Shown here: one piece after another, positions 6,325 to 52,831 of the stretch
How positions within the stretch are numbered: position 1 is the stretch's first letter
Layout: each line of letters begins with the position of its first letter
Program-made: the position numbers and the translations under genes
Assembly: GCF_004010955.1 (NCBI RefSeq)
Contig: NZ_CP025227.1
Coordinates: forward strand, 682,001-746,000
Source: Actinomyces wuliandei
GTDB lineage: Bacteria; Actinomycetota; Actinomycetes; Actinomycetales; Actinomycetaceae
DNA: 64,000 nt
Direction of reading: 5' to 3'
Notes under the pieces: model-generated
The model's database searches: none
The model's input: only the letters and a program-made list of their open reading frames with translations
What the model was told of the DNA's origin: nothing

Positions 6325-6939
6325 ATGACGATCACTGCTGCGGCGGACGGCTCCGCCCTGGGTAACCCCGGTCCGGCAGGCTGGGCGTGGTACGTGGACG
6401 AGGGCTGCTGGGCGGCAGGCGGCTGGCAGACCGCGACCAACAACCGTGGGGAGCTGACCGCCGTGCTGGAGCTCCTGCGCGCGACGCAGGCGGCGGGCCT
6501 GGCAGGCGAGGACCTCCTGGTCCTGTGCGACTCCCAGTACGTCATCAACTCAGTGACACGGTGGCGGCACGGCTGGAAGAAGCGGGGGTGGCGCAAGGCG
6601 GACGGCAAGCCGGTCCTCAACGTGGACCTCATGCGGGAGCTGGACCAGGCCCTGGCAGGTCGGTCCGTACGCTTTGAGTGGGTGCGTGGGCACGTGGGCC
6701 ACATGCTGAACGAGGCGGCGGACACCAGGGCGCGGGCCGCAGCCACCGCCTACCAGCAGGGCAGGGCGGTGCCCGCAGGTCCTGGCTGGACGCGCGGTGG
6801 TGGAGCCAGCCAGGCCGCTGGGCAGGTGGTGCAGGCTAGTGCCCAGGGGGAGGGACAGCAGGGCTCAGAGAAGCGTCAGGGCCTGGCGGGCGATGGCCAG
6901 CTCCTCGTTGGTGGGGACGACCAGCACCGTCACGGGTGA
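6325..6939 (+). CDS. rnhA: ribonuclease HI
   Basis: A 204-residue type 1 RNase H that cleaves the RNA strand of RNA-DNA hybrids. The metal-binding acidic residues are visible in order: Asp in TAAADGSALGNPGPAG, Glu in NNRGELTAVLE, Asp in VLCDSQYVINSV, and Asp in NEAADTRARAAA. The catalytic domain fills about the first 150 residues. The remainder is a low-complexity Gly/Ala/Gln-rich tail of about 50 residues that runs antisense over the end of ackA with a 75-base overlap. The tail may be an incidental extension after loss of an earlier stop. Confidence 0.92.
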   Translation: MTITAAADGSALGNPGPAGWAWYVDEGCWAAGGWQTATNNRGELTAVLELLRATQAAGLAGEDLLVLCDSQYVINSVTRWRHGWKKRGWRKADGKPVLNVDLMRELDQALAGRSVRFEWVRGHVGHMLNEAADTRARAAATAYQQGRAVPAGPGWTRGGGASQAAGQVVQASAQGEGQQGSEKRQGLAGDGQLLVGGDDQHRHG

Positions 6940-8049
6940 CTGCGGTGCGGAGACGACGCGGGCCTGGGAGGACCGGGTCTCGTTGAGGGTGTCGTCGAGC
7001 CTGATGCCCAGGAAGCCCAGGCGCCCGCACAGCTCGCGGCGCAGGCGGGCGTCGTTCTCCCCGATCCCGGCGGTGAAGGTCAGGGCGTCCAGGCCGCCCA
7101 TGACGGCGGTGTAGGCCCCCACGTACTTGGTCAGCCGGTGGAGGTAGATGTCCATGGCGTCACGGGCCTCCTGCTCCCCGTCGTCCACACGCCTCCACAC
7201 CTCACGCATGTCGTTGTCTCCGGCCAGCCCCTTCATCCCGGAGCCCCGGTTGAACAGGTTGTCGATCTCGTCGACCGTCATGCCGGCCACCCGGGCCAGG
7301 TGGAACACGGCCGCCGGGTCAATGTCACCTGTGCGCCCGCCCATGACCAGTCCCTCCAAGGGGGTCAGCCCCATGGAGGTCTCCACGGCGTGGCCCGCCA
7401 CCACCGCCGAGGCTGAGGCCCCGTTGCCCAGGTGCAGGACTACCTGACGCAGGTCCTCACGTCCCAGGAGCCGGGAGACCTGCTCGGAGACGTACTGGTG
7501 GCTGGTGCCGTGGGCGCCGTAGCGGCGGATCGAGTAGCGGTCGGCGACCTCCCGGTCCAGGGCGTAGCGGGCAGCCTCCTCAGGCAGGTCCTGGAAGAAC
7601 GCGGTGTCGAAGACCGCCACGTGGGGGACGTCCGCCAGCAGCCTGCGAGCGACCTCAATACCCTTGAGGTGGGCGGGGTTGTGCAGCGGCCCCAGCGGCA
7701 CCAGCTCTGTGATGAGGGTGACGACCTCGTCGTCGATGAGGGCCGGGCCGCTGAAGTGGCGCCCTCCTTGGACCACCCGGTGCCCCACGGCGACGACGTG
7801 CGCCTCAGCCAGGCTGGGACCCTTGTCCTCGAAGAGGCGCAGCACCTCGGCCAGCCCGGTGCCGTGGTCGGGAACAGGCTGGTCGAGCTCGGTGCGCTGG
7901 CCAGCCACCTTGTGGACGATGGCACCAGCCTCCTCCCCGATGCGCTCCACCAGGCCGGAAGCCAGGGAGCTGCCCGAGTCAGGGTCCACCAGCTGGTACT
8001 TGATGGAGGAGGAGCCGGAGTTGATGACGAGGACGGTCCGCTGGGTCAC
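6865..8049 (-). CDS. ackA: acetate kinase
   Basis: A 394-residue cytosolic acetate kinase that converts acetyl phosphate and ADP to acetate and ATP. The N-terminal phosphate-binding segment VLVINSGSSSIKYQLV, the motif VFDTAFFQDLP, the stretch HGTSHQYVSEQ and the block FTAGIGENDA are all present. The start is GTG at 8049. It lies 128 bases downstream of pta on the same strand, the classical pta-ackA pair for acetate overflow and mixed-acid fermentation. Its end overlaps the rnhA tail. Confidence 0.97.
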   Translation of the reverse strand: MTQRTVLVINSGSSSIKYQLVDPDSGSSLASGLVERIGEEAGAIVHKVAGQRTELDQPVPDHGTGLAEVLRLFEDKGPSLAEAHVVAVGHRVVQGGRHFSGPALIDDEVVTLITELVPLGPLHNPAHLKGIEVARRLLADVPHVAVFDTAFFQDLPEEAARYALDREVADRYSIRRYGAHGTSHQYVSEQVSRLLGREDLRQVVLHLGNGASASAVVAGHAVETSMGLTPLEGLVMGGRTGDIDPAAVFHLARVAGMTVDEIDNLFNRGSGMKGLAGDNDMREVWRRVDDGEQEARDAMDIYLHRLTKYVGAYTAVMGGLDALTFTAGIGENDARLRRELCGRLGFLGIRLDDTLNETRSSQARVVSAPQSPVTVLVVPTNEELAIARQALTLL

Positions 8050-37341: not shown

Positions 37342-38844
37342 ATGACAGTCAAGCACTGGGTCTCCGGCGGCCCGTGGACCGGATCGGGAACTGAGACGCT
37401 GCCGATTGAGAACCCGGCCACCGGCGAGGTCATTGACGAGCTGGTGCTGGCCTCGGAGGAGGACCTCGACCACGTGGTAGAGGTGGCGCGCGAGGCCCAG
37501 AAGAAGTGGGCCCGTACCTCGCTGGCCAAGCGTGTAGACGTCATGTTCCGGATGCGCGAGCTGGTCAACCAGCACGCGGACGAGCTGGCCGAGCTCATCG
37601 TGCGCGAGGGCGGCAAGACCCACGGTGACGCCCTGGGGGAGATCGCCCGCGGCCGGGAGACCATTGACTTTGCCTGCGGCATCAACGCTGCCCTCAAGGG
37701 GGAGTTCACCGACCAGGCGGCCACCGGGGTCGATGTCCACACCCTGCGCCAGCCGGTGGGGGTCGTCGCGGGGATCTGCCCGTTCAACTTCCCCGTCATG
37801 GTGCCCATGTGGATGCACCCCATCGCCCTGGCCACCGGTAACGCCTTCATCCTCAAGGTGGCCTCGCTGGTGCCCTCAGCCTCCCTGAAGATTGCTGAGC
37901 TCTACAAGGAGGCGGGCCTGCCTGACGGCCTGTTCAACGTGGTGGCGGGCAACCGCACGATCGTCACCCGGGTGCTGGAGCACCCCGGCATCGACGCCAT
38001 CTCATTCGTGGGCTCCTCGCCGGTGGCCCACATCGTCCAGGACACGGGCGTGTCCCACGGCAAGCGCGTCCAGGCCCTGGGCGGGGCGAACAACCACGCC
38101 ATCGTCATGCCTGACGCCAACATGGAGTTCGCCGCCCAGCACGTCTCCGCCGGCGCCTTCGGGGCGGCCGGGCAGCGCTGCATGGCCCTGCCGGTGGTCG
38201 TGGCCGTGGGTGACGCGGCCGAGCGCCTGATCCCGCTGGTCAAGGAGCGTGCCCAGGCGATCGTCACCGGGCCGGGCACGGACAAGGCCTCCGAGATGGG
38301 GCCGGTCATCACCCGCAAGGATCTGCAGCGTATCGAGGGCTGGATCGCCCGGGCCGAGGAGGGCGGCGCTGACGTGGTGCTCGACGGCCGCGGCTACCGT
38401 CCCGAGGGTGAGGACTACCAGGACGGCTTCTGGCTGGGCCCCACGATCGTGGACAGGGTGCCCACCGAGCAGTCCCTCTACTGTGAGGAGACCTTCGGCC
38501 CGGTGCTTGTGGTGGTGCGGGCCGAGACCTACGAGGAGGCCATCGAGCTGGTCAACTCCTCGGAGTTCGGCAACGGCGCGGCCATCTTCACCTCTGACGG
38601 GGACGCTGCGCGTCAGTTCGTGGTTGACGTGGAGGCTGGCATGGTCGGGGTCAACGTGCCCATCCCAGTGCCGGTGGCCTACTACTCCTTCGGCGGGTGG
38701 AAGGAGTCGCTCCTGGGTGACCACCACATTCACGGCCCAGAGGGTGTGCGCTTCTACACCAGGGGCAAGGTGGTCACCTCCCGGTGGGCGCGCCGTGGCG
38801 AGAAGGTCGGCTACGTGGGGATGAACTTCCCGACCAACGGGTAG
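37342..38844 (+). CDS. iolA: methylmalonate-semialdehyde dehydrogenase (CoA-acylating)
   Basis: A 500-residue aldehyde dehydrogenase that converts malonate semialdehyde to acetyl-CoA, the last inositol step. It has ICPFNFPVMVPMWMHPIALA, FVGSSPVAHIVQ (nucleotide site), and the catalytic Cys in GAAGQRCMALPVVVAVG, typical of the MmsA/IolA branch. ATG 37342 follows AAAGGAGAG. It is last in the right-hand iol set and ends at a very long terminator palindrome. Confidence 0.95.
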   Translation: MTVKHWVSGGPWTGSGTETLPIENPATGEVIDELVLASEEDLDHVVEVAREAQKKWARTSLAKRVDVMFRMRELVNQHADELAELIVREGGKTHGDALGEIARGRETIDFACGINAALKGEFTDQAATGVDVHTLRQPVGVVAGICPFNFPVMVPMWMHPIALATGNAFILKVASLVPSASLKIAELYKEAGLPDGLFNVVAGNRTIVTRVLEHPGIDAISFVGSSPVAHIVQDTGVSHGKRVQALGGANNHAIVMPDANMEFAAQHVSAGAFGAAGQRCMALPVVVAVGDAAERLIPLVKERAQAIVTGPGTDKASEMGPVITRKDLQRIEGWIARAEEGGADVVLDGRGYRPEGEDYQDGFWLGPTIVDRVPTEQSLYCEETFGPVLVVVRAETYEEAIELVNSSEFGNGAAIFTSDGDAARQFVVDVEAGMVGVNVPIPVPVAYYSFGGWKESLLGDHHIHGPEGVRFYTRGKVVTSRWARRGEKVGYVGMNFPTNG

Positions 38845-38869
38845 GTGGGCAGGCCAGCAGTTCGGTACA

Positions 38870-38926
38870 GCCCACGTCAACGCACCACTGACGCCCCAGG
38901 GGCGTCAGTGGTGCGTTGACGTGGGC
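38870..38926 (+). terminator. 28-bp perfect palindrome after iolA
   Basis: Arms 38870-38897 and 38899-38926 are perfectly complementary with a single-base centre. It lies 26 bases past the iolA stop. No U-tract follows. Confidence 0.75.
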
Positions 38927-39074
38927 GTCTGGCAGGGGTAGTCGCTGCACCGTGCGGCTGAGAGGCTCCAGGTCAGCCCGGCTACAACCAGGCGCTGGGC
39001 TAGCAGCCGACAGGTGGGGCGGCCCCTGACCGACCGCAGTTCCAGGCCGCGCTCCTGGCCTGGTCGGCTGGCGC

Positions 39075-39393
39075 TGGTTCCACCACGCCGTGGGCGGCCG
39101 CTCCAGGGGCGTGTGCCCCGAGATCCTTGATGACGAGACCAGGGACACTGCCGCAGGCTTCTAGTGGCGCGCCAGCGCCTTCTTCGCCTCCCTGGGCGTG
39201 ACTGTGCAGGAGGTCATGACCGGCGACAGGGCCTGCTACCGGTCCAGGGTCTTCAACCAGGCACTCCAGGCAACCGGGGTCGGGCACCGCTGCACCCGCC
39301 CCTACCGCCCCCAGACAGGCGCCAAGGTCGAGCGCCTCAACCCCACCCTGCAAGAGGAGCAGGCTGGGGTGGGGGGCTTCTCGGCTGCTGGGA
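39075..39393 (+). mobile_element. IS481-family transposase remnant
   Basis: A frame with an in-frame TAG (39162-39164) and no start or proper end encodes the core of an IS481-type transposase: PEILDDETRDTAAGF, then after the stop VTVQEVMTGDRACYRSRVFN and HRCTRPYRPQTGAKVERLNP. The catalytic Glu (KVERLN) is kept, but the expected acidic residues in the first two motifs are degraded. Neither end of the IS is recognisable. It marks the left side of the AT-rich peptide island and is probably a relic of its arrival. Confidence 0.8.
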
Positions 39394-39406
39394 TCAAAGC
39401 ACAACT

Positions 39407-39470
39407 CTTTGTGAAGGGTGATCTTTGTGAAGGGTGATCTTTGTGAAGGGTGATCTTTGTGAAGGGTGAA
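39407..39470 (+). repeat. 16-bp tandem repeat, four copies
   Basis: CTTTGTGAAGGGTGAT is repeated three times exactly (39407, 39423, 39439) and a fourth time with one change at the end (39455-39470). It lies at the junction between the IS481 remnant and the peptide island. No coding or regulatory role is evident. Confidence 0.9.
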
Positions 39471-39702
39471 GGAGGCCGTGCCAGGGGACACGCTGCTGTG
39501 ACGAAACGGCTACTGCCGCCATACACCCGGTTAGTAGGCAGGAACAGTTTATGGGCGAACTGAGATCTAGGGTCCTCGGCCTGTATGCCGGGCATCCTCC
39601 CACCAGTCACTCGTCCCCACGAGTCACTCGCCACTGCATAGCACGCGGCGCAAACATATCCGAAAGGAACTACGTATGTGGCTAGAACACGATTAGATTT
39701 AC

Positions 39703-40530
39703 TTAAGGAGGACTGTGTCGAGCCGTAGTCGAGTAGCAGTTATCTATGGTGCCACGGCGTGCGAATACCCATCCGTGAAGTAACTGCGGGAGCCGTGAAC
39801 CGGTGGATCGTTCCTGCTGCCTGAGGGCAGTGATTACTCGTGGAGCGGTCATCAACTGCAGATGCTCTCGGGTGCCAAAATCGAAACCCGCAAACGTTGA
39901 AGTCCCGGTAAGGACCTCATATCCCTGTTCGGCCGGAGCTGAACGGATGAGGAGATCAGTGAACTGTTGCAAGGTGTAGGCGGAGTCGTACTGACTTCTC
40001 AGGTAAGAACGTTCTTCGTCGTTGATGGCGTATGAGAGCCCTAGTTCGAGATCCTTGACGTTGATGTCGACGATATACATCAACCCTCGCGTCGACAGTT
40101 GCTGGACGGCGTGGGCGAGTAGGTGTAAAGGCCTTTCCCAAAGTCCAAGAGTCAAGTGTGCGAGAATAGTATCAAAACTCCCTTCGGGTGCTCCTTCCCG
40201 AAGGAGCAGGCGCGCTGATGGAACTATCTGGCGTGCACAAGAAAGCGTCTCTGCCACCGTGTCTGTGCCTGTTAGTGAAACTTCAGGATCGCTGTTAGCA
40301 ACATAAGAAAGGACAAGCCCCTCGCCACAGCCGACGTCGAGAAAACTGCTGGGAGAAAAGCCGTTAAGGGCCTCGTATCTACTGAAAAGAAAAGCAGCTG
40401 ATAACTTTCCGGTGGCTGTTGTTTCTCGATAATCATGCGCAGAACTGATGTGCGTGAGCAATGGATCATTGAACCAATCTTGAGCCGAAGCCCGGTCTGA
40501 CTGTGAAGGTGTCATCGCACTACCATACAT
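39703..40530 (-). CDS. pznL: SAM methyltransferase, plantazolicin PznL-like
   Basis: A 275-residue class I SAM-dependent methyltransferase. Motif I is SFLDVGCGEGLVLSYVANSD at about residues 60-79; SFDTILAHLTLGLWE is the post-II region. It ends the peptide operon, overlapping the CPBP gene by 11 bases, which is the position of PznL in plantazolicin clusters as I recall. PznL dimethylates the alpha-amine of the core Arg1 after leader removal, and this precursor keeps Arg1. Function is inferred from position and precursor. It appears intact, as do pznB, pznE and the ABC genes. AT-richer than surrounding genes. Confidence 0.82.
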   Translation of the reverse strand: MYGSAMTPSQSDRASAQDWFNDPLLTHISSAHDYRETTATGKLSAAFLFSRYEALNGFSPSSFLDVGCGEGLVLSYVANSDPEVSLTGTDTVAETLSCARQIVPSARLLLREGAPEGSFDTILAHLTLGLWERPLHLLAHAVQQLSTRGLMYIVDINVKDLELGLSYAINDEERSYLRSQYDSAYTLQQFTDLLIRSAPAEQGYEVLTGTSTFAGFDFGTREHLQLMTAPRVITALRQQERSTGSRLPQLLHGWVFARRGTIDNCYSTTARHSPP

Positions 40531-41155
40531 TCCGCGAGGGTGGAGGGGGTTGTGTCGCCATTATCGTACCGTTTCCCGGCTTTAAAAAAGCCAATGCAAA
40601 GTTGTGTGCCACATGAAACACAATTGCTGCAAAAACTGCTCCCGACAGGATTGCAGCCCAAGAAAAGGTAGTGAACAAACAAATATAGAGAAAAAATGCC
40701 ATGCGTTTATTTTTAGGGTAGTGCAGTGCAATGAAGCCCGCCGCTGAAGTTGCAACAGCTGCATAGTTAGACAGCCCCCAGTGTGTTAGCAGGAGCGGGG
40801 CTGTCACCCGCCACAGCAGTTCTTCACCTACGGCAGCGGCGGGAAGAGTAGAAAGATCAGTGCGGTGCCGCCTCTTTCGTATACGCTGGCCAGTTATCAG
40901 CCAAACCGCACAGGGCATTAATATGCCAAATCCCGCCCACGCGGCAATCATCAAAAGATGACCAACACAGTTAGGGTACAGGAGTGCAACGGGCATAGCA
41001 AGGACGCCTGCGGCAATTGTCACGAGATCGTAGTGGCGTTGGGGCGTGAGTGACAAATTCATCTGACCCCAAATGCCGGTCCTGGGAAAAAATGCAACCT
41101 GCACTGGTGCAGTGAGATGCAATGTCAGTCCGAGGGATGAAAGAACTATATTCAT
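40520..41155 (-). CDS. pznE: CPBP intramembrane protease (SagE/PznE-like)
   Basis: A 211-residue membrane protein with about six hydrophobic segments and the CPBP motifs: EELLWRVTAPLLL (EExxxR), FIALHYPKN and IVFHVAHNFAL (His residues). In streptolysin- and plantazolicin-type clusters the E protein is thought to remove the leader or give immunity. Here the expected cut is after MAA in the precursor. The ATG overlaps the dehydrogenase stop as ATGA, and its own end overlaps the methyltransferase gene. Confidence 0.85.
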   Translation of the reverse strand: MNIVLSSLGLTLHLTAPVQVAFFPRTGIWGQMNLSLTPQRHYDLVTIAAGVLAMPVALLYPNCVGHLLMIAAWAGFGILMPCAVWLITGQRIRKRRHRTDLSTLPAAAVGEELLWRVTAPLLLTHWGLSNYAAVATSAAGFIALHYPKNKRMAFFLYICLFTTFSWAAILSGAVFAAIVFHVAHNFALAFLKPGNGTIMATQPPPPSRNVW

Positions 41156-41973
41156 ATGTCACCAGAAATCCCAACAACAAAAGCGTATATCGGCGCAGTG
41201 TCGACTCCATTAGTATAGCCGATCATCTGAGATAGCTCGTCGTCAATGAACCCGCCGAATGGTCTGCCTCCGAGTGAGATTGCTGGAGTTATTAGAGTCA
41301 GGTTCTGCATAATATGACCAGCATCAAGAAACACGAACCTCCCCGAACGAGGGTCGTACTTGAAACGGTTTCGCCAGAAACTGGCTGAAAGCACAATGGT
41401 AGCAGCAGAAGATGCCACCATGTCTTCTTGCAACAGTGCTTGGGCAAGGAGCTCATCTCTAAAATCTGCAAGACGGACAAGACATGTTCGGTATGGATCG
41501 TAGTGATAAACGCCGTGCCTCAGTTTAGTGATACGACTAGCGAAAACATAGATGTCGATTGGGTACAACGCTCCGCCCGAAGGAACACGACGGCGTAGTC
41601 CTTCCGGCCGATAAGTAACCCCGTAACTGAAATCAAGCATAGTGGCGAGTTGGGTCAATGTAATTTCCTCGCCAGTGAAATAGTTAGTACTTCGTCGCTC
41701 CTCCGCTGCTTCTAGAAGACTAATGGAGGGAGTCAATGGTGCTGGAAGTTGTGTTGCTGGTAGATCGTCGAACCGTTTTCCGGCACGTGTAGCAATTACT
41801 TGCAATGCGGGTGAACGGGTGAGTCGACTAACACCTGGGGCATCCCATGCCATTGAAGCCCGGTATACCTTGCTAGCCTCAAACCAGTTCTCAGTAGGAT
41901 CGTCGTAGGAAAGATACTCATTCCCATAAACAACGTCAACCAGGTTGGTTGCATGACGTTCTATTTCACTCAT
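41152..41973 (-). CDS. pznB: SagB-type azoline dehydrogenase
   Basis: A 273-residue FMN-dependent nitroreductase-like enzyme of the SagB/ThcOx family that oxidises thiazolines and oxazolines to azoles. The hallmark RRRVPSGGALYPIDIYVFAS is followed by GVYHYDPYRTCLVRL and FLDAGHIMQNLTLI. It appears intact. It lies 27 bases after the YcaO reading frame and overlaps the CPBP gene by four bases, as expected for order C-D-B-E-L. Confidence 0.9.
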   Translation of the reverse strand: MSEIERHATNLVDVVYGNEYLSYDDPTENWFEASKVYRASMAWDAPGVSRLTRSPALQVIATRAGKRFDDLPATQLPAPLTPSISLLEAAEERRSTNYFTGEEITLTQLATMLDFSYGVTYRPEGLRRRVPSGGALYPIDIYVFASRITKLRHGVYHYDPYRTCLVRLADFRDELLAQALLQEDMVASSAATIVLSASFWRNRFKYDPRSGRFVFLDAGHIMQNLTLITPAISLGGRPFGGFIDDELSQMIGYTNGVDTAPIYAFVVGISGDI

Positions 41974-42000
41974 TTCGGTAGTGTCCTTCCTGGTCCTAGA

Positions 42001-43343
42001 TCATGGGAATGGGTGGGGCGCCTGATTCAAACTGTCAACGGTGAAGGGCCGCGAACATAGGCCAAGTTGATGGGCATGGTTTAGAAGTCGTTGGCCCCCC
42101 ATGAAACGAGCGTTGTAGGAGGTGTCAAGAGGCCGTAAACCAGATACGACCGTCTTTACTACATGCACCCCTGCATCGCGTATATCCGGGCTGGTGAGAT
42201 CGAATGTAATGACTCGGTGACCTTGTTGAGACAAATGTTCTACCAGATTATGCCATAGCCTATTTGGGGATGTGTCGTCGAAAGATGGGAGTTCTGAAAC
42301 CTCGCAACGACAAGGGCTTGTTGTCAAAAAATCTGCTTCAGTCATGATAGGGGTGCCAGCGTAAAGGCGAATGTGATCCTCAAATGTGCGCAGAGTTTTT
42401 GAGAAGTCTGCGGGGTGACGGATTACTCTTCCTTCTCTCTGCTCGGTTTTCATCCAAGTCCTAGTGTACATTGCTTCTGTTGCGGCTTTGACGCAGGCAC
42501 GTTCTACAGTCGCAGCACTGGCAGCACCGATCGCGAATGGCGCAAGTACCGAGGTGCGGCTGCGGACTACTGCGAGGATGGCTGGAATGCCGCTGAACGC
42601 TGACATGTTCACAAGATGAATGTCAAGACCAGTGGGCGTGAAGTGTCTTTCAATGTAGTCTTGCAGGGTTGGACTCGAGATTACTTCAATCTGCGGGAGG
42701 CTTAATTTGTTGTACCAGGTGAGCATGAAGCCGTCCCGCTCGACCACTTCAAATAAGCCAGAGAGCGCCGCTTCGGTGTACGTGATACCACAAGCGAGAC
42801 CGTTGCTGGTGGCATAGCCAACAGCGGGCTCATTGCGCCATTGTCCGGCCATGTGGATCAATTGTGCAGGTGCCCATACTGCAGTTCCTGTGATGGCGTC
42901 TTTTCCTTCTCGCCACCACAGCGGCAGGTCGTCAGTCCACCGATCGTAACCGAAGTCCTTGATGTTATACTACTGATCAGCAAACATAGCGAAATCATCA
43001 GCGCTCAGTAGGTCTAGTTCGTGCCTAAGATCATGAGTGGTCCCATATCTTACAGATGCTGAGTCTGTCGGTGCGTAGGCAGCACTATACCGTTCCACCG
43101 TCTCGCCGATTGCAGCCAGGCGGGCGCTAATGAGATCAGGTGATCCTCCACCGTTGTATTGTAAGTGCTACCAGGGACGTCGAAAAGCAAACTGCTATCT
43201 GTGCTGTGGGCACCAACAGAATGAGCAAGGATGTCGTCAACATCACGGAGCTTCATGTACTCACGACGCGTGATTCCCACATACGGATCAGAAAGTGGCA
43301 GCAAGATCGCCGCTGCTTGCTGGGTGCTAGTCCACTCGCTCAT
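42001..43343 (-). pseudogene. pznD: YcaO cyclodehydratase (SagD/PznD-like), interrupted
   Basis: YcaO proteins use ATP to convert Cys, Ser and Thr into azoline rings. The N-terminal frame (43343-43050) reads normally to FDVPGST and then leaves frame. The other frame picks up YNGGGSPDLISARLAAIGE, then VERYSAAYAPTD, so one base is lost or gained between 43151 and 43170. A TAG at 42970-42972 then interrupts before YNIKDFGYDRW. The remainder (42969-42001) is continuous, with VGYATSNGLACG, FEVVERDGFMLTW and a C-terminal PHPFP that fits the PxPxP end of this family. The restored length of about 447 residues equals an intact family member. The ATGA overlap with the C gene remains. Confidence 0.88.
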
Positions 43344-44361
43344 TGCGTTGCCTTCGAGTCTCTACTCTCTACGCTGACAGGATCGTCGTGAAACCAAACT
43401 TGAGGGAAGCCCGTGTCGGCTACTGGGGAGCAGTCGGGACAACGGGGTACCCTCAGGACTCTACGGGTTTGAACTTCCAATCCGGTGTCACCGATGGTGA
43501 TTGTGGTCAGTCCGCCAGGCATAGTGCATGGCCCATGGCTGCGGAGCGTGACACTTTCTAGAAGCAGATTGGAAACTATCCCCGCCTGGATGTAATGTAG
43601 TGGGTTCGGGCCGAAGTCAGGGGCAGGGTTATCAATAGGTTGAAGCTTAAGGAGTTCCGGACGGAAGATATCATCGGAGAAATTTGCTGATCTGCGAAGT
43701 TGAAAGCATTTTATACAGGCGGATTGATATGGGATACAGAATGGTCCTACCCACGCTGTTTCCGAGTCGAAGGCTATCACAGGAAGCAGCGGTGTGTTAG
43801 TTTTTAGCGCGTGGCTGTTGGCAAGAAAGAGCGTTGGATCTATGTAGGAGTTTGCGACTATGACAAGTATATCTCCCCGCGCTTCTGGAACCGAACTGAA
43901 CACCTGTATATTCGGGCCCTGTGCCGTTGCGGCTAGTTGGATGGTATCCGCTAAGGCGCTCCCCGGACGAGACATCAAGGATACAGATGTCTTCTTCAGG
44001 CGCTGTTCGATGGTGTCATCAGATGCCTGACGTCCTGGGCGTAGAGCGGCTAAGATGACTGATGGAGGATAGCGCTTCTGCGCAGTGGTCAATAGACCTG
44101 CTTCGACTAATCGGTCCAGCACGGCCGAAACCTGACTGACCGGGAGAGACATGGTTTCAGCCAAGTCTTCGGCAGAGATGTATCCATCCATTCCCAGCTC
44201 GTGCAACAACTCAGTGGCGAAACTGGTAACTCCGTCGCCGTGAATAGTGGTAGCGAACTTAGCTGCAACTATGACTAAACTTTCGTCTAGAGACGCCGTC
44301 TCGGCAAAAGGTGCCGACGGTAGAACTTATCTGGTTTGAGGTCATTGGCATGTGAGCTCAC
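43340..44361 (-). pseudogene. pznC: TOMM leader-binding protein (SagC/PznC-like), frameshifted
   Basis: This ThiF-like partner binds the leader and presents it to the YcaO protein. The start is GTG 44361 after a perfect AGGAGG, giving SSHANDLKPDKFYRRHL. The frame is then lost at a run of four T (44306-44309); adding one T restores FAETASLDESLVIVAAKFAT and a continuous frame to the end. From there the protein is intact, with two zinc-ligand pairs, SACIKCFQLRR and RVPRCPDCSP. Restored length is about 340 residues. The single lesion in a homopolymer could be a sequencing error. Confidence 0.82.
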
Positions 44362-44370
44362 AGTTGCCTC

Positions 44371-45089
44371 CTAGTGTCCGTGAGAGATAAGTTGCGGAGT
44401 GAGTGGCTGCCTTCCAAGTATTTTCGATAGGACCTGGGTAGTTGCTGACAGCAGCGGATCGGAAGTGGTGTGTTGGTAGTTGGCCACCCAATATGCATCT
44501 GTGTCAGACATTCCGTTTGCCAGGAGTTTGTCTGTGAACTCATCTGGTTGCAGGCACGCCAATTCAATGTCCATATTTAAGTTATGTGCCATAGTGTCGC
44601 GAAGGTGGGTCATCGGTATGCGCGCAGGCCCGGTCAGGTCGTACGCTTGACCTTTTTTCTTGGATATGGGTTGGGGTAATCCGGCTAATAGCTTCGGCCA
44701 GGTCTGACGTCTGTATCCATGCTACACCTTCTTCGTGGAAGGATGACATGAGAATTCCAGCTGCTTGCGCCCACGACCACAGCAGCGGGAGCGATAAGTC
44801 TAACGGCGAGCATCGAAGTATGATTGAGTTCGGAATGCTGTTCAGCAGGGTAGACTCCGTGTCGCCGAGCGTGTCATCAAGGTGTGTCCGCCTCGTCGAG
44901 ATAATAACAGTCTCCCATGAGTTGTTGACGACGCCTTTAAGCTGTTGCAGACTCGGTGCTGAACTTCCAACTAAGTCGATGATCTGGACGGGTGCACAGA
45001 TGAAGGACTGAAGCGTCTCGGCGAGGCCATTTCATGCCCCGATATAGTGAGCACCATTGATTGCTGACGGATAGGTTGTCGGGGTCATG
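44371..45089 (-). pseudogene. NmrA-like NAD(P)-binding protein, interrupted
   Basis: Reading from ATG 45089 (overlapping the permease stop as ATGA), the frame meets TGA after HYIGA (45035-45033), continues in frame (NGLAETLQSF, VIISTRRTHLDDTLGD, GVAWIQTSDLAEAISRI), then shifts at a run of six A/T (44653-44658) into KGQAYDLTGPARIPMTHLRD to the end. YDLTGP and the C-terminal half are typical of NmrA-like/SDR5 proteins. One nonsense codon and one frameshift make it a pseudogene as read. It lies where PznJ sits in plantazolicin clusters, but I cannot confirm homology. Confidence 0.72.
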
Positions 45090-45861
45090 AGTCGTACTCC
45101 CGGTCGCTGTCGCGGCTGGCGCGGATAAGGCATATGACAGTGAGACCGATGGTCCAAGTGAAGAAGCCGACGAGTGCGGGAGCAAAGTGTTCAGTACCTA
45201 CGCCCGTTGCCCAACTGCTAAGTTCGAGTGCCGAGCGGGTGGGCATTGCGAGGGAGACGGTGGCGAACTGCTCAGGGAAGGCATGAGGAGGTATAAACAG
45301 GCCGCCTCCGAAGGCGAGTGCAAGCATGAGCACCTGGGCAACCGCTACTGCTGCTTTGGAACCTAGCAGGTACCCAATCGCGATTCCGATCAACATAGAT
45401 GGGGCAGAGGTGACAAGCAGGGCTGCGATTCCCGCAAGCAGGCGAGGCAGAGTGAGCGAGGCTTCCGTGCTGAAGGCTGCAAGTAAGATTAGCGGAATTA
45501 CCGATGCTGCGGAAAGTACTCCTGATGACAGGAGGTAGGATAATAGCCTAGATCCTGCTCCGCAGGGCAGTGTCCGGGTATAAGTGCCCCAAGGGCGTTC
45601 TCTCGCCTGGGAAACTTCCGTGGCGAACTGGAACAAGGAATTGACCATAACGCCGAATACGGCCAGGCCAATCACTGCGCTGGTGGCTAGTTCCGAGTCT
45701 TCTGCAACCGCGCGTTGCGGTACGACAAAGAACAGTAGGCCGATGCTGGGAGCGAAGAGACCCATGAGGATGCTGATGGGTATTCTCACGGCTTCACTGA
45801 GCTGGAACTTAGCTTGTACTAGGGCTAGGTAGATGGGGTTCTTAAGCGTTGTCGTGCTCAT
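45085..45861 (-). CDS. pznH: ABC-2 type permease (peptide export)
   Basis: A 258-residue membrane protein with six hydrophobic segments (for example IPISILMGLFAPSIGLLFFV and LLAGIAALLVTSAPSMLIGI). It overlaps the ATPase gene by 20 bases and the next gene by 4, so it is part of the peptide operon and pairs with the ATPase to export the mature peptide or confer immunity. It appears intact. Confidence 0.85.
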   Translation of the reverse strand: MSTTTLKNPIYLALVQAKFQLSEAVRIPISILMGLFAPSIGLLFFVVPQRAVAEDSELATSAVIGLAVFGVMVNSLFQFATEVSQARERPWGTYTRTLPCGAGSRLLSYLLSSGVLSAASVIPLILLAAFSTEASLTLPRLLAGIAALLVTSAPSMLIGIAIGYLLGSKAAVAVAQVLMLALAFGGGLFIPPHAFPEQFATVSLAMPTRSALELSSWATGVGTEHFAPALVGFFTWTIGLTVICLIRASRDSDREYDS

Positions 45862-46756
45862 CGATTATCCTCGTGTTGCGGCTGGCGGCGGAGAGTGCAT
45901 TGTTAACGACTTCGATGTTGTTGAGTGTGCCTGTGTTATGCAGTGCCCAGCGCAAGGTTTCGTCTAGGTCGTCGGTGATGAACTCTAGTACTCCGTTGCG
46001 GTAGTGGGACTCACCGTGGCGGTAGATTGCGTGGTAGGCATCTGGGGTGGTGGTCGAGATCCGCACCTTTGCTAGTCTGCTTGCCGCTCGGATATCTGTG
46101 ATAGGTGCGTCTTGGACGACTCGTCCTTCTTTGAGGGCGACTACTCGCTGGGACAATCGTTCGATGTCTTCCAAGTAGTGGCTCGTGACTATTAATGTAG
46201 TACCGGCATCGACTCGTGCTGCTACTCGCGTCCACAGCAGTTCTCGTGATTCATCATCCAGGCCGGTCGTTGGTTCGTCGAGTAGAACTAGTTTCGGGTT
46301 GCCGACGAATGCGAGGGCGACGGTCACTAGTCGTCTCTGCCCACCAGATAATCCGCCCACCTGCCTTCCCAGCAGATGTCCAATGTTGAACTCCTCCACC
46401 AATTTAGATATTTTTGCGGTTTTTTGGTAGAACGCTTGGACATATGCGAGCACCTCGCCAACCCTTGCTGTTTCAGGCAGGCTCAATGCCTGCGGTGCCA
46501 TGCCGAGCCTGGTACGCGATCGCGGGTTCGTCGGGTCGCCTCCAAACAGTCGGACTGTCCCGCAGGTCGGTCGTCGTAACCCGGCAAGCAACGCCAGCAG
46601 CGTAGTCTTGCCCGCCCCATTGGGCCCTACAAGCCCCACAGCCTCACCCGCAGTTATTTGCAAGGTAATATCGGTTAGTGCCGCCTGCCTTCGATATTTT
46701 TTGCATATTGAGTCGAAGTGAGCGACTGTTGGATGGGCGCCCGTCGTCATGTCCAT
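45842..46756 (-). CDS. pznG: ABC transporter ATP-binding protein (peptide export)
   Basis: A 304-residue ATPase with GLVGPNGAGKTTLLALLAGL (Walker A), GGLSGGQRRLVTVALAFV (signature), LVLLDEPTTGLDDESREL (Walker B) and VTSHYLEDIERLS (switch). It is the first gene of the operon, divergent from the precursor gene. ATG 46756 is used because it lies just before the conserved domain; 46813 and 46750 are alternatives. Together with the permease it forms the exporter. Confidence 0.9.
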   Translation of the reverse strand: MDMTTGAHPTVAHFDSICKKYRRQAALTDITLQITAGEAVGLVGPNGAGKTTLLALLAGLRRPTCGTVRLFGGDPTNPRSRTRLGMAPQALSLPETARVGEVLAYVQAFYQKTAKISKLVEEFNIGHLLGRQVGGLSGGQRRLVTVALAFVGNPKLVLLDEPTTGLDDESRELLWTRVAARVDAGTTLIVTSHYLEDIERLSQRVVALKEGRVVQDAPITDIRAASRLAKVRISTTTPDAYHAIYRHGESHYRNGVLEFITDDLDETLRWALHNTGTLNNIEVVNNALSAASRNTRIIDEHDNA

Positions 46757-46780
46757 GGATCTAGCGTAGCGCGTTGCGAC

Positions 46781-46793
46781 TTTGCATTGCAAA
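46781..46793. promoter_or_regulatory. inverted repeat in the divergent promoter region
   Basis: TTTGCATTGCAAA (five-base arms, three-base centre) lies 25 bases upstream of the ABC ATPase start and 166 bases before the precursor gene. It is a candidate operator for the peptide cluster. No dedicated regulator gene is seen in the island. Confidence 0.35.
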
Positions 46794-46958
46794 ACACTTT
46801 GTGAGGCAGACATGGATTTCAGCGTGCTGTGGAGCCAGTCTGTATTTCACCTGTTATTAATATCATAGTTTCTTTGGTTGTGCTTGATGTATGGTGTGTA
46901 TTGCGCTGATGCAGTCAGTGTGCAGATCTTGGCGAGCCGGACGCGAGAGGAGGTGGTT

Positions 46959-47090
46959 ATGGAAGCCATCGCCTTGCCGGATGTATCTACGATGACGATC
47001 ACGAGTTTCGGTGAGGGTCAGCACCTGTTTGAGCCTATGGCGGCTCGATGCACGACCACGACCATCATCTCCAGTTCCAGCTGCTTCTAG
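46959..47090 (+). CDS. pznA: plantazolicin-type azol(in)e precursor peptide
   Basis: A 43-residue precursor starting ATG 46959 after a strong AGGAGG site. The leader is MEAIALPDVSTMTITSFGE followed by GQHLFEPMAA, and the core is RCTTTTIISSSSCF. The leader end GEGQHLFEPMAA and the core match plantazolicin (RCTCTTIISSSSTF as I recall) except for two exchanges, Cys4 to Thr and Thr13 to Cys. Ten of 14 core residues can be cyclised. Arg1, Ile7-Ile8 and Phe14 are kept, so the two five-ring halves and N-terminal dimethylation of plantazolicin are predicted in principle. The gene is intact, divergent from the maturation operon and followed by a terminator hairpin. Confidence 0.95.
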   Translation: MEAIALPDVSTMTITSFGEGQHLFEPMAARCTTTTIISSSSCF

Positions 47091-47127
47091 GCGTGAGGTC
47101 GCCATGACTTTGTGTTGTCGCAGTGGG

Positions 47128-47169
47128 CATGTGGTTCCGCGAAGTTGAATGCCTTTGCGGAACCACATG
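47128..47169 (+). terminator. terminator hairpin after the precursor gene
   Basis: Thirteen-base arms CATGTGGTTCCGC (47128-47140) and GCGGAACCACATG (47157-47169) with a 16-base loop, 38 bases past the precursor stop. Confidence 0.7.
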
Positions 47170-47644
47170 TGTGTCTGGCTGGGAACTTAGGTGCTTTGGT
47201 GGTGGGTGAGTGGGTCTGGTGATGAGATGTTGGGTCTTGTCGCGCGGTGGTGCGTTGTTAAGCTGCGGCGGTGAAGCTTTGCTTGTGTCACTTCCCCTGG
47301 GGATGCTTGTTCTGGTGACGGGCTCGATCCGTGGGGTCTGGTCTGGGTGAGGTCGGAGACTGCAGGGCTGTGACGCGTGTGACTGCCTTGACTGTCGGCG
47401 TGGGAGGTGTTCTTGCTGCGTATGGCGGGACCCTCCTGTGGGTGGCGCGAGTCAGGCTGGTGCGGGCGTGGCTGTGAAGGTGGTGGGGGTCCTGGCCCCG
47501 CTGCTGGTCTCCGGGACCTTGTGCGCAAGACGTCTTGCGTGGTAGTGCGGGTCTGTTGGTGGTCAGCCGCCATAGGCCACCTGAAGATGTGCAGCATGGG
47601 AGCCTGGAGGTGTAGGCGCTGCGGGCGGGGCACGACCAACGCTG
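47170..47644. other. intergenic region at right edge of island
   Basis: No gene is seen in about 470 bases. Base composition shifts here from the AT-rich island to GC-rich chromosomal sequence, with a G/T-rich strand bias on the plus strand. No repeat of the IS481 remnant or of the 16-bp repeat was noticed. Confidence 0.4.
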
Positions 47645-47659
47645 TATGTCCTGACAAAG
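47645..47659. promoter_or_regulatory. IolR-like operator, site 7
   Basis: TATGTCCTGACAAAG contains TGTCCTGACA, a full match to KGWCHTRACA. It lies 83 bases before the isomerase gene that starts the right-hand inositol operon. Confidence 0.65.
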
Positions 47660-50984: not shown

Positions 50985-52430
50985 ATGACCTCGCCCGCGC
51001 CGCGCAGCCCCTTGCGGCTGCGCCTGTACGCGTGGGTGGCAGGTGTGCTCCTGGGCTCCCTGGAGGGGGTGCTTGCGGTCGTCGTCGCAGGTGGCGCTGG
51101 CAGGGGCGCCGCAACGGCTGGCCTCCCAGGTGGGGGCAGCGGTGTGGAGGAGGCGACTGGCGGTGCGCTCGGCGCGGCCAACCCGGCGCCTGCCGTGCCG
51201 GTGGCCCTCGTCCTGTGCGCCATGGTTGTGGTGGGGGCGTTGTGCGGCCCGCGGCTGAGCCGCCTGCTCGGCAGGAGGGTGGCGGACCTGGGGGCCGGGG
51301 CGCTGATCGTGGCCGGGGCGCTGCTGGCGGCTGCCTTGACAGGGGGTGAGGGTCCCTTAGGCGCCAGGACCGCTGGTGCCGTGGTGGCTGGCCTGGTCGG
51401 GCCTGCTGCCGCAGGGGCTGGTGCGGGGCTCCTGCTGCTGGTGGCCCCCCAGGTCTGTCACGAGCTCTCCCTGCCCGGTCACAGACGCCTCATGCCCCAG
51501 GCGATGGCGCTTATGCCAGCGGGTGCTGCGCTGGTGGTGCTGGGGGGAACCCTGGGTGCGCGGTGGCTGCCGGATCCTGCGCGCGGGGCGTGGCTGGGTG
51601 TCCTCGTGCTGGGTGCCGTGCACCTGGGGGTGGGCATCAGCCTGCCCGAGAGTCCGGTCTGGCTGGCGGAACGGGGAGGGGACGTCAGAGCCTTCGAGGC
51701 GCTGCGGCGCCTGCATGGCAACCTGGAGGCTGCTGTCGCCGTCGACTGGGCCCGCCACGAGGCAGGCATGGCCCGCGAGCAGCAGCGGCTGACCGCCGCC
51801 GACCTCAGGATTCCCCAGATTCGCCAGGCCACCGTGACCAGCGTGGTGCTCGTGGTGGCGCAGGAGGCGCCCCTGGGGGCCGCTGCGCTCGTCCTGGCTC
51901 CTGCGGTGGCTGACCACCTGGGAGGAGGCGCGCGCACGGTCGCCGCCGCCTGCGTGGGCTGGGGCGTCGTCAGTGTCCTGGCCCTGCTCCTGGGGCGGGT
52001 GGAGACCCTGGAGCGGCTGCGCTTCCTGCGGGTGGTGCTGGGCAGCGTGGTCGCGGTGGTGGCTGCCACGGTGCTGGTGACCACCACTAGCGCTGGTGGC
52101 GGGGGACCGTCAGACGCGGACCTGCCAGGAGGGGCGCTGGCCGGGACTGTCGTCGGCTGCCTCGTCGCGCTGGTGGCAGGCCAGTACGTCCTGGTGCTGC
52201 CCGCATGCCAGGGTGCAGTAGATCCGCAGATTCCCCCGTGGCTGGTAGGCACCCAGCGTCGGCTGGTAGCGGTGGGGCAGTCCCTGGCCCATGCCGGCGC
52301 GATCGTGGTCCCCCTGCTGGTCTACCAGCGCTGGGGCCTGGACGTGGTGGGCTGGGTGATGTTCACCCTGACCGTGGTCGCGCTGGCGGTGGTGCTGGTC
52401 CGGATGCCGCGTGCGCTCAGGGCTGCCTGA
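50985..52430 (+). CDS. MFS transporter, sugar-porter-like
   Basis: A 481-residue membrane protein with about 11-12 hydrophobic segments. ISLPESPVWLAERGGDVRAF followed by EALRRLHG is the sugar-porter signature after the sixth helix. The N-terminal half is very rich in Gly and Ala, and the usual first-loop motif is weak. ATG 50985 starts right before the first helix; a longer frame from 50856 runs through the terminator. Its place just after the inositol operon suggests inositol uptake, but the terminator in between argues for separate control. Confidence 0.78.
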   Translation: MTSPAPRSPLRLRLYAWVAGVLLGSLEGVLAVVVAGGAGRGAATAGLPGGGSGVEEATGGALGAANPAPAVPVALVLCAMVVVGALCGPRLSRLLGRRVADLGAGALIVAGALLAAALTGGEGPLGARTAGAVVAGLVGPAAAGAGAGLLLLVAPQVCHELSLPGHRRLMPQAMALMPAGAALVVLGGTLGARWLPDPARGAWLGVLVLGAVHLGVGISLPESPVWLAERGGDVRAFEALRRLHGNLEAAVAVDWARHEAGMAREQQRLTAADLRIPQIRQATVTSVVLVVAQEAPLGAAALVLAPAVADHLGGGARTVAAACVGWGVVSVLALLLGRVETLERLRFLRVVLGSVVAVVAATVLVTTTSAGGGGPSDADLPGGALAGTVVGCLVALVAGQYVLVLPACQGAVDPQIPPWLVGTQRRLVAVGQSLAHAGAIVVPLLVYQRWGLDVVGWVMFTLTVVALAVVLVRMPRALRAA

Positions 52431-52831
52431 CCTGTGGGACTCCCAGGGTCTCGTGTGCCTGGCGCATCTGCTCCGCCTCCTCCTGGGAGAACTCGAACTC
52501 CTTCTCGCTCCAGGCCCACATGTCGCTCCAGTCCCACATGGTCTGGACAAGCGGCCTGAGGCTCTCTCCGCGACGGGTCAGGCGGTAGTCCACCCTGGGC
52601 GGGGGCTCGCCGTGGTCGGTACGCTCAAGAAAGTCGTCCTCAACCAGCTCTTTTAGTTGCTTGAGCAGCGCGGAGTCCCGATATGCCGTGCAGGCAGCAC
52701 CGTAGCTGCCCACAGTGCCTGACGTCCGCCAGGGCGACGTAGAAGAGGATCTCAATCCTCCACTTCCCGCCGATAACCTTCTGACGGGACGTGATTGCAG
52801 GGCACCACGTGATCTTGGGGGCCTCTGGCAT
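52417..52831 (-). pseudogene. HxlR-family regulator, frameshifted
   Basis: Reading from ATG 52831, PEAPKITWCPAITSRQKVIG, GKWRIEILFYV and GQLRCCLHGIS give the first half of an HxlR winged helix (CP...VIGGKW...L). At about 52679-52682 the frame is lost; one additional base joins it to RDSALLKQLKELVEDDFLER, then PPRVDYRLTRRGESLRPLV to the stop. The combined length of about 138 residues equals an intact HxlR protein. It is divergent from the DsbA-like gene, a common HxlR target type. The gene ends 14 bases inside the MFS gene. Confidence 0.8.

Follow-up and report, generated by a model that had tools for sequence, protein, structure and literature searches.

An intact plantazolicin-class precursor gene in a cluster probably acquired horizontally and since decayed

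Introduction

Does an intact precursor gene mean that a strain still makes the peptide? The question is raised by a 43-codon gene in the 64-kb window analysed here, by which we mean the whole stretch of 64,000 nucleotides from the genome called G000 below. The earlier note on this DNA had identified the gene as that of a plantazolicin-type precursor in an inositol region and had taken it to define the neighbouring operon as a plantazolicin-class cluster, with the implication that the cluster works. The answer depends on whether the gene is real, on the class and condition of its neighbours and on how they came to lie where they do.

Results

The 43 codons and their stop form a real gene, as the earlier note had proposed. 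The NCBIfam model TIGR04218 (TOMM_plantaz) matches positions 1-43 of 43 with 65.2 bits and E 3.6e-18, above its cut-off of 45, and the family search of the own genome ranks the precursor first (E 7.4e-17), with a match in 0 of 14 control genomes. Among about 5.8 billion proteins, searched with a threshold of E <= 0.1, 13 homologues were found with E values from 3.0e-17 to 5.2e-7, and AGGAGG stands five bases ahead of the ATG. HLFEPMAARC is present in all 13 homologues and the full 14-residue GEGQHLFEPMAARC in 12 of them, P0007 being off by one residue. The six homologues that carry a name at NCBI are plantazolicin family peptides from four Bacillus species, Microbacterium lacticum and a Propionibacteriaceae MAG, and the alignment with Bacillus plantazolicin precursors that the earlier note had called for succeeds, since GEGQHLFEPMAARC is common to the precursor and those named in Bacillus. 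That the frame arose by chance or encodes an unrelated peptide is hardly conceivable, given the 13 homologues, 12 of which are identical over the 14 residues, together with the score above the family cut-off and the gene neighbourhood. We rejected the chance frame on the family model, the own-genome search and the homologues.

The leader ends in GEGQHLFEPMAA and the core is RCTTTTIISSSSCF, both exactly as first read from the DNA; likewise, the Bacillus core that the earlier note had given, RCTCTTIISSSSTF, is that of P0012 and P0013 (Bacillus safensis and B. velezensis by their NCBI names). According to PMC4603692, a plantazolicin core begins with Arg, followed by five heterocyclisable residues, two nonpolar ones and five to six more. 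The core found here agrees with that description, reading R-CTTTT-II-SSSSC-F, a five + two + five plan whose second Cys is penultimate. The main locus used for comparison, L005, comes from a MAG that bears the label Spirochaetia and occupies there an 11.3-kb contig, probably mis-binned actinobacterial DNA; its precursor has 95% identity to the one studied here and the same core, and dN/dS between the two is 0.066. A metagenome protein, P0004, equals the L005 precursor with nine extra core residues between CTTTT and IISSSSCF. Around the gene (46700-47300), a scan for sigma-70 and terminator consensus sequences gave none of either, and 47128-47169 contains a hairpin whose 17-nt arms are 94% complementary.

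The genes adjoining the precursor, called A below, are collected in Table 1. Protease E and the ABC exporter are recognised by PF02517, PF00005 and PF01061, all above cut-off. A SagB-type dehydrogenase, B, is predicted from TIGR03605, and L is the likely N-terminal Arg methyltransferase, as it matches six PDB sequences that include 4kwc (BpumL, E 1e-41) and 4kvz (BamL, E 8.4e-36), the plantazolicin methyltransferases. The set and order G-H-J-C-D-B-E-L are identical in L005, in L006 (a Propionibacteriaceae MAG) and in L007 (Auritidibacter ignavus), and in L008 (Bacillus badius), L009 (Priestia flexa) and L010 (Bacillus safensis) they agree as well, except for G and H in L010 and an unmatched second half of J in L008. 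Identity to L005 is 73-82% for B, C, G and H. The longer of the two D pieces falls in the same range, and the shorter one has 69%. Thus, the minus-strand genes match plantazolicin clusters in both sequence and order, and L resembles BpumL and BamL, which bears out the class given to the operon at first reading. Sequence comparison therefore supports the assignment of the precursor to the plantazolicin class, which its match to TIGR04218 also indicates, and of the adjacent operon to plantazolicin-type clusters.

Table 1. Positions and evidence for the features of the cluster and of its insert
Feature	Position	Strand	Evidence
Stretch missing from sister genome G018, between iolA and iolE-like gene	38841..47645		blastn vs L034; GC
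Probable transposase (integrase core) remnant within insert	39198..39437	+	PF13683 17.9 bits, below cut-off 26.5
L, SAM methyltransferase, BpumL/BamL type, open	39703..40530	-	60% to L005 L
E, CPBP/Rce1-type protease (presumed leader peptidase), open	40520..41155	-	PF02517 37.9 > 22.4 bits; 47% to L005 E
B, SagB-type dehydrogenase, open	41152..41973	-	TIGR03605 125.7 bits > 78.4; 82% to L005 B
D, YcaO cyclodehydratase, broken	42001..43343	-	TIGR03604 on last piece, profile 103-377 of 377
C, leader-binding partner of cyclodehydratase, broken	43340..44361	-	TIGR03882 43.4 bits > 36.9
J-like gene, broken	44371..45085	-	tblastn to L005 J gives two pieces, each in its own frame, with a stop inside
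H, ABC-2 permease, open	45085..45861	-	PF01061; 78% to L005 H
G, ABC transporter ATPase, open	45842..46813	-	PF00005; 74% to L005 G
Shine-Dalgarno AGGAGG	46948..46953	+	5 nt upstream of ATG; sequence
pznA-like precursor (A), 43 aa, intact	46959..47090	+	TIGR04218 65.2 bits > 45

The implied working cluster was not supported. Six of the nine recognisable genes remain open (A, B, E, L, G and H), and five lesions are confined to three adjacent ones. Aligned with L005, D is covered in one frame over residues 1-93 and in another over 92-476, the switch falling near 43158, and has an in-frame stop at 42970-42972; J is interrupted in frame by a stop codon near 45032-45034 and shifts frame near 44640-44670; and the alignment of C begins at residue 20 of its L005 counterpart, with a frame change near codon 18-20 that puts its start in another frame and leaves the remainder open. 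Two of these lesions are nonsense substitutions, one is a short tandem duplication and two are frame changes located in or close to short homopolymer runs, so that no single type of sequencing error explains them. D belongs to the class by its last piece, 58% identical to B. safensis D; that piece leaves the beginning of the SagD-type profile uncovered, and the missing part presumably carries ATP/Mg-binding residues. One protein in the public set matches D at 100%, and no other does; at 320 aa, it is roughly as long as what follows the stop. A YcaO search of the own genome gave one match, which is D itself with its internal TAG, and rescue by a second YcaO was accordingly rejected. Two further genes, for a membrane protein and an HTH regulator, follow pznA in L005, L006 and L007, with a regulator also in L010, and tblastn with the L005 proteins found no match to either in the 64-kb window at E 1e-3.

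As a control for these lesions, coding-like open reading frames of G018, filtered by GC by codon position, were compared with native regions of the own genome. This gave 46 frames, with iolD counted twice (L034 and L040 overlap), eight further ones with no match of >=80% being left out. A single frame without stop was found for 38 of the 46, and eight were flagged. Three of the flagged frames have stops at residues 16, 18 and 48, ahead of the Pfam domain; two with a leading segment in another frame were read as over-long query frames; and one, acetate kinase, is split in G018 and not in the own genome. The G018 gene is shortened (L041:4697-5164), and the copy in the window, at 6865-8049, is open over 394 aa. 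After this triage two of the 46 remain. They include the gene of an HxlR-type regulator (52423-52831, minus strand), which lies in two frames relative to its G018 counterpart. Fisher's test of three broken cluster genes in nine gives p 0.027 against the triaged control (2/46) and 0.36 against the untriaged one (8/46), so the native genes back decay only moderately. Relaxed constraint could not be shown by dN/dS against L005, which was uncomputable for five of ten segments, their synonymous sites being saturated.

How did the cluster come to lie here? Homology to G018 (blastn against L034) ends at 38840 and restarts at 47646, leaving about 8.8 kb extra in the window, and in G018 about 0.4 kb separates iolA (99% identity over 476 residues) from the iolE-like gene (97%). 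The GC content of the cluster is 52.9%, against 68% on both flanks. Upstream, iolB, iolD and iolA match above cut-offs, and downstream there are iolE-like and iolG-like genes below curated cut-offs, so that the inositol setting noted at the outset stands. Sequence comparison would make acquisition followed by decay the simplest history of the cluster; it is also possible that the cluster was lost from G018 rather than gained here. A perfect palindrome with 28-nt arms (38870-38926) immediately follows iolA at the insert's left edge and is perhaps a terminator or the end of an element. Four head-to-tail copies of a 16-bp unit occupy 39406-39469, beside the transposase remnant, from whose region 39273-39360 has a 92% similar copy at G000:C1:579611-579699; DNA 75% similar to 39066-39334 is found at G000:C1:1307816-1308066. 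A large serine recombinase (L005:9560-11134) adjoins the plantazolicin-type cluster of L005, which fits with mobility. A plasmid origin was rejected, as tblastn of the precursor against plasmids gave no match at E 1e-5; with L005 D, at E 1e-60, a single plasmid record was retrieved, from Corynebacterium tuberculostearicum, with 36% identity. A viral origin was rejected too, since in a scan of viral contigs none of 17 pattern matches was confirmed.

The rarity that had been claimed for the family is confirmed in a class sample of 394 genomes, of which one, the own genome, exceeds the family cut-off; in this survey, 17 first-look candidates were scored in each of the larger genomes. Absence from all related genomes had been named as a sign against the gene. 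Within the genus the precursor is over the cut-off in 0 of the 36 other genomes searched, but related loci exist elsewhere, which points to horizontal acquisition and not to a false gene.

The own genome carries a second TOMM-like precursor, at L012:7228-7353 (MSEAATAQGFSIVTYGEDETFFEPTAARCSSSSSTCCAACVG), within a locus (L012:7228-11355, about 2971227-2975354 of G000:C1) that holds, besides the precursor, SagB, an ABC pair, a methyltransferase and a CPBP protease. Its counterpart in G018 (L036) also has J, C and a YcaO gene, and relative to it the own genome is without about 2.4 kb (C and D) and about 0.6 kb (most of J). The YcaO gene of this locus lies in two frames near its N-terminus in G018 (L036:8300-9630) and in one frame in G009 (L037:9390-10616), and the precursor type was found in three of the 49 genomes of the genus. 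A YcaO match is present in 34 of these 49 genomes (33 over cut-off), so that loci with YcaO, whether for azole peptides or for something else, are common in the genus; the congener G028 has six such matches.

Discussion

We conclude, with a probability of roughly 0.8, that the locus is a horizontally acquired and since decayed plantazolicin-class cluster, in which the precursor is intact but orphaned, and that production of the antibiotic by this strain has very probably ceased. In this model, the cluster would have arrived between iolA and the iolE-like gene and then decayed. In a cluster that works, C would bind the leader, the YcaO protein D would cyclise Cys, Thr and Ser of the core to azolines, and B would oxidise these to azoles; E would then cut the leader off after its MAA end, L would dimethylate the new N-terminal arginine beside the first thiazole, and G and H would export the product. 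In the strain studied here, the precursor, if translated, should remain unmodified, because the genome has no other YcaO. The sequences, their lesions, the absences, the site of insertion and the foreign composition are direct observations; we infer the loss of function, the decay after acquisition and, from the named families and general knowledge, the enzyme roles.

Might the cluster nevertheless be functional, its lesions being assembly or sequencing errors, so that the strain makes a plantazolicin variant? The precursor is open and historically constrained, as are open six of the nine genes; two of the frame changes lie at or near short homopolymer runs, which are error-prone sites, and the untriaged control does not set the cluster apart from its surroundings. 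Errors of this kind would, however, have had to strike five times within three adjacent genes, producing two stop substitutions and a tandem duplication as well, in an assembly that consists of one contig with an estimated completeness of 100% and in which the native iolD, iolA and iolE-like gene beside the cluster are all open; moreover, the regulator and the membrane protein have no match either. We therefore regard a functional cluster as unlikely.

A partly retained cluster, in which production has been lost and the open G and H protect against related peptides of neighbours, appears still less probable. It would suit the pattern of damage, which falls on D, C and J, and the dN/dS values of 0.125 and 0.086 for G and H against L005. 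These values, however, were obtained against a distant relative and reflect the history before acquisition; B, E and L, which have no obvious protective role, are open too, and no match was found here to the conserved membrane protein, which could be a candidate for immunity. A broader proposal takes both azole-peptide loci of the genome together: production would have been lost at each, as neither has a whole cyclodehydratase while precursors and exporters are open, through selection to drop production and keep export or protection. We consider this doubtful. If true, the loss at two loci would indicate selection for dropping production while export, or protection against the peptides of neighbours, stays.

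Decay after horizontal acquisition, the reading that we prefer, has several implications. The locus represents a rare, probably horizontally moving cluster in a genus in which none of the 36 other genomes searched exceeds the family cut-off, and it illustrates that an intact precursor is no proof of a working pathway. For finding a product, the useful leads are not this strain but L005, L006 and L007, where the genes are unbroken, and the core CTTTTIISSSSC. The loss of cyclodehydratase at two loci of one genome is, in addition, a small case for how azole peptides get lost.

How does the cluster compare with known systems? The second locus (L012, L036 and L037) is a plantazolicin-like sister type that shares a leader end, PTAARC, a Ser/Cys-rich core, SagB, the ABC pair, the methyltransferase and the CPBP protease, with C and YcaO in G018 and G009; it differs in its core, in having only about 39% identity in D and about 40% in B, and in adjoining a cytochrome c assembly gene in G000. 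With plantazolicin of Bacillus (L010, P0012 and P0013) the cluster has in common the leader end GEGQHLFEPMAA followed by RC and the 5+2+5 core, a methyltransferase of the BpumL/BamL type and, in L010, the order J-C-D-B-E-L on the strand opposite to A, with identities of 58% in the last D piece, 57% in B and 36% in L. The core here reads CTTTT...SSSSC instead of CTCTT...SSSST, D, C and J carry their lesions, and the regulator has no match. In L010, G is matched on the far side of A and H has no match, whereas here, as in L008 and L009, both genes stand between A and J.

L005, L006, L007 and the protein P0008 are relatives of actinobacterial type, and the three loci also place G and H between A and J. 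The core RCTTTTIISSSSCF is identical in L005 and ends in ...SSSSCTF in L006 and in ...SSSSSCW in L007 and in P0008, a Microbacterium lacticum protein named 'plantazolicin family RiPP' at NCBI. In these three loci D, C and J, all damaged in the cluster studied here, form one open reading frame each, and pznA is followed by the membrane protein and the regulator, to which nothing in the window matches. Because the RC start of the precursor core fits, a plantazolicin cluster in actinobacteria is not a new kind of finding, and the cluster described here is a degraded addition to an already known rare family.
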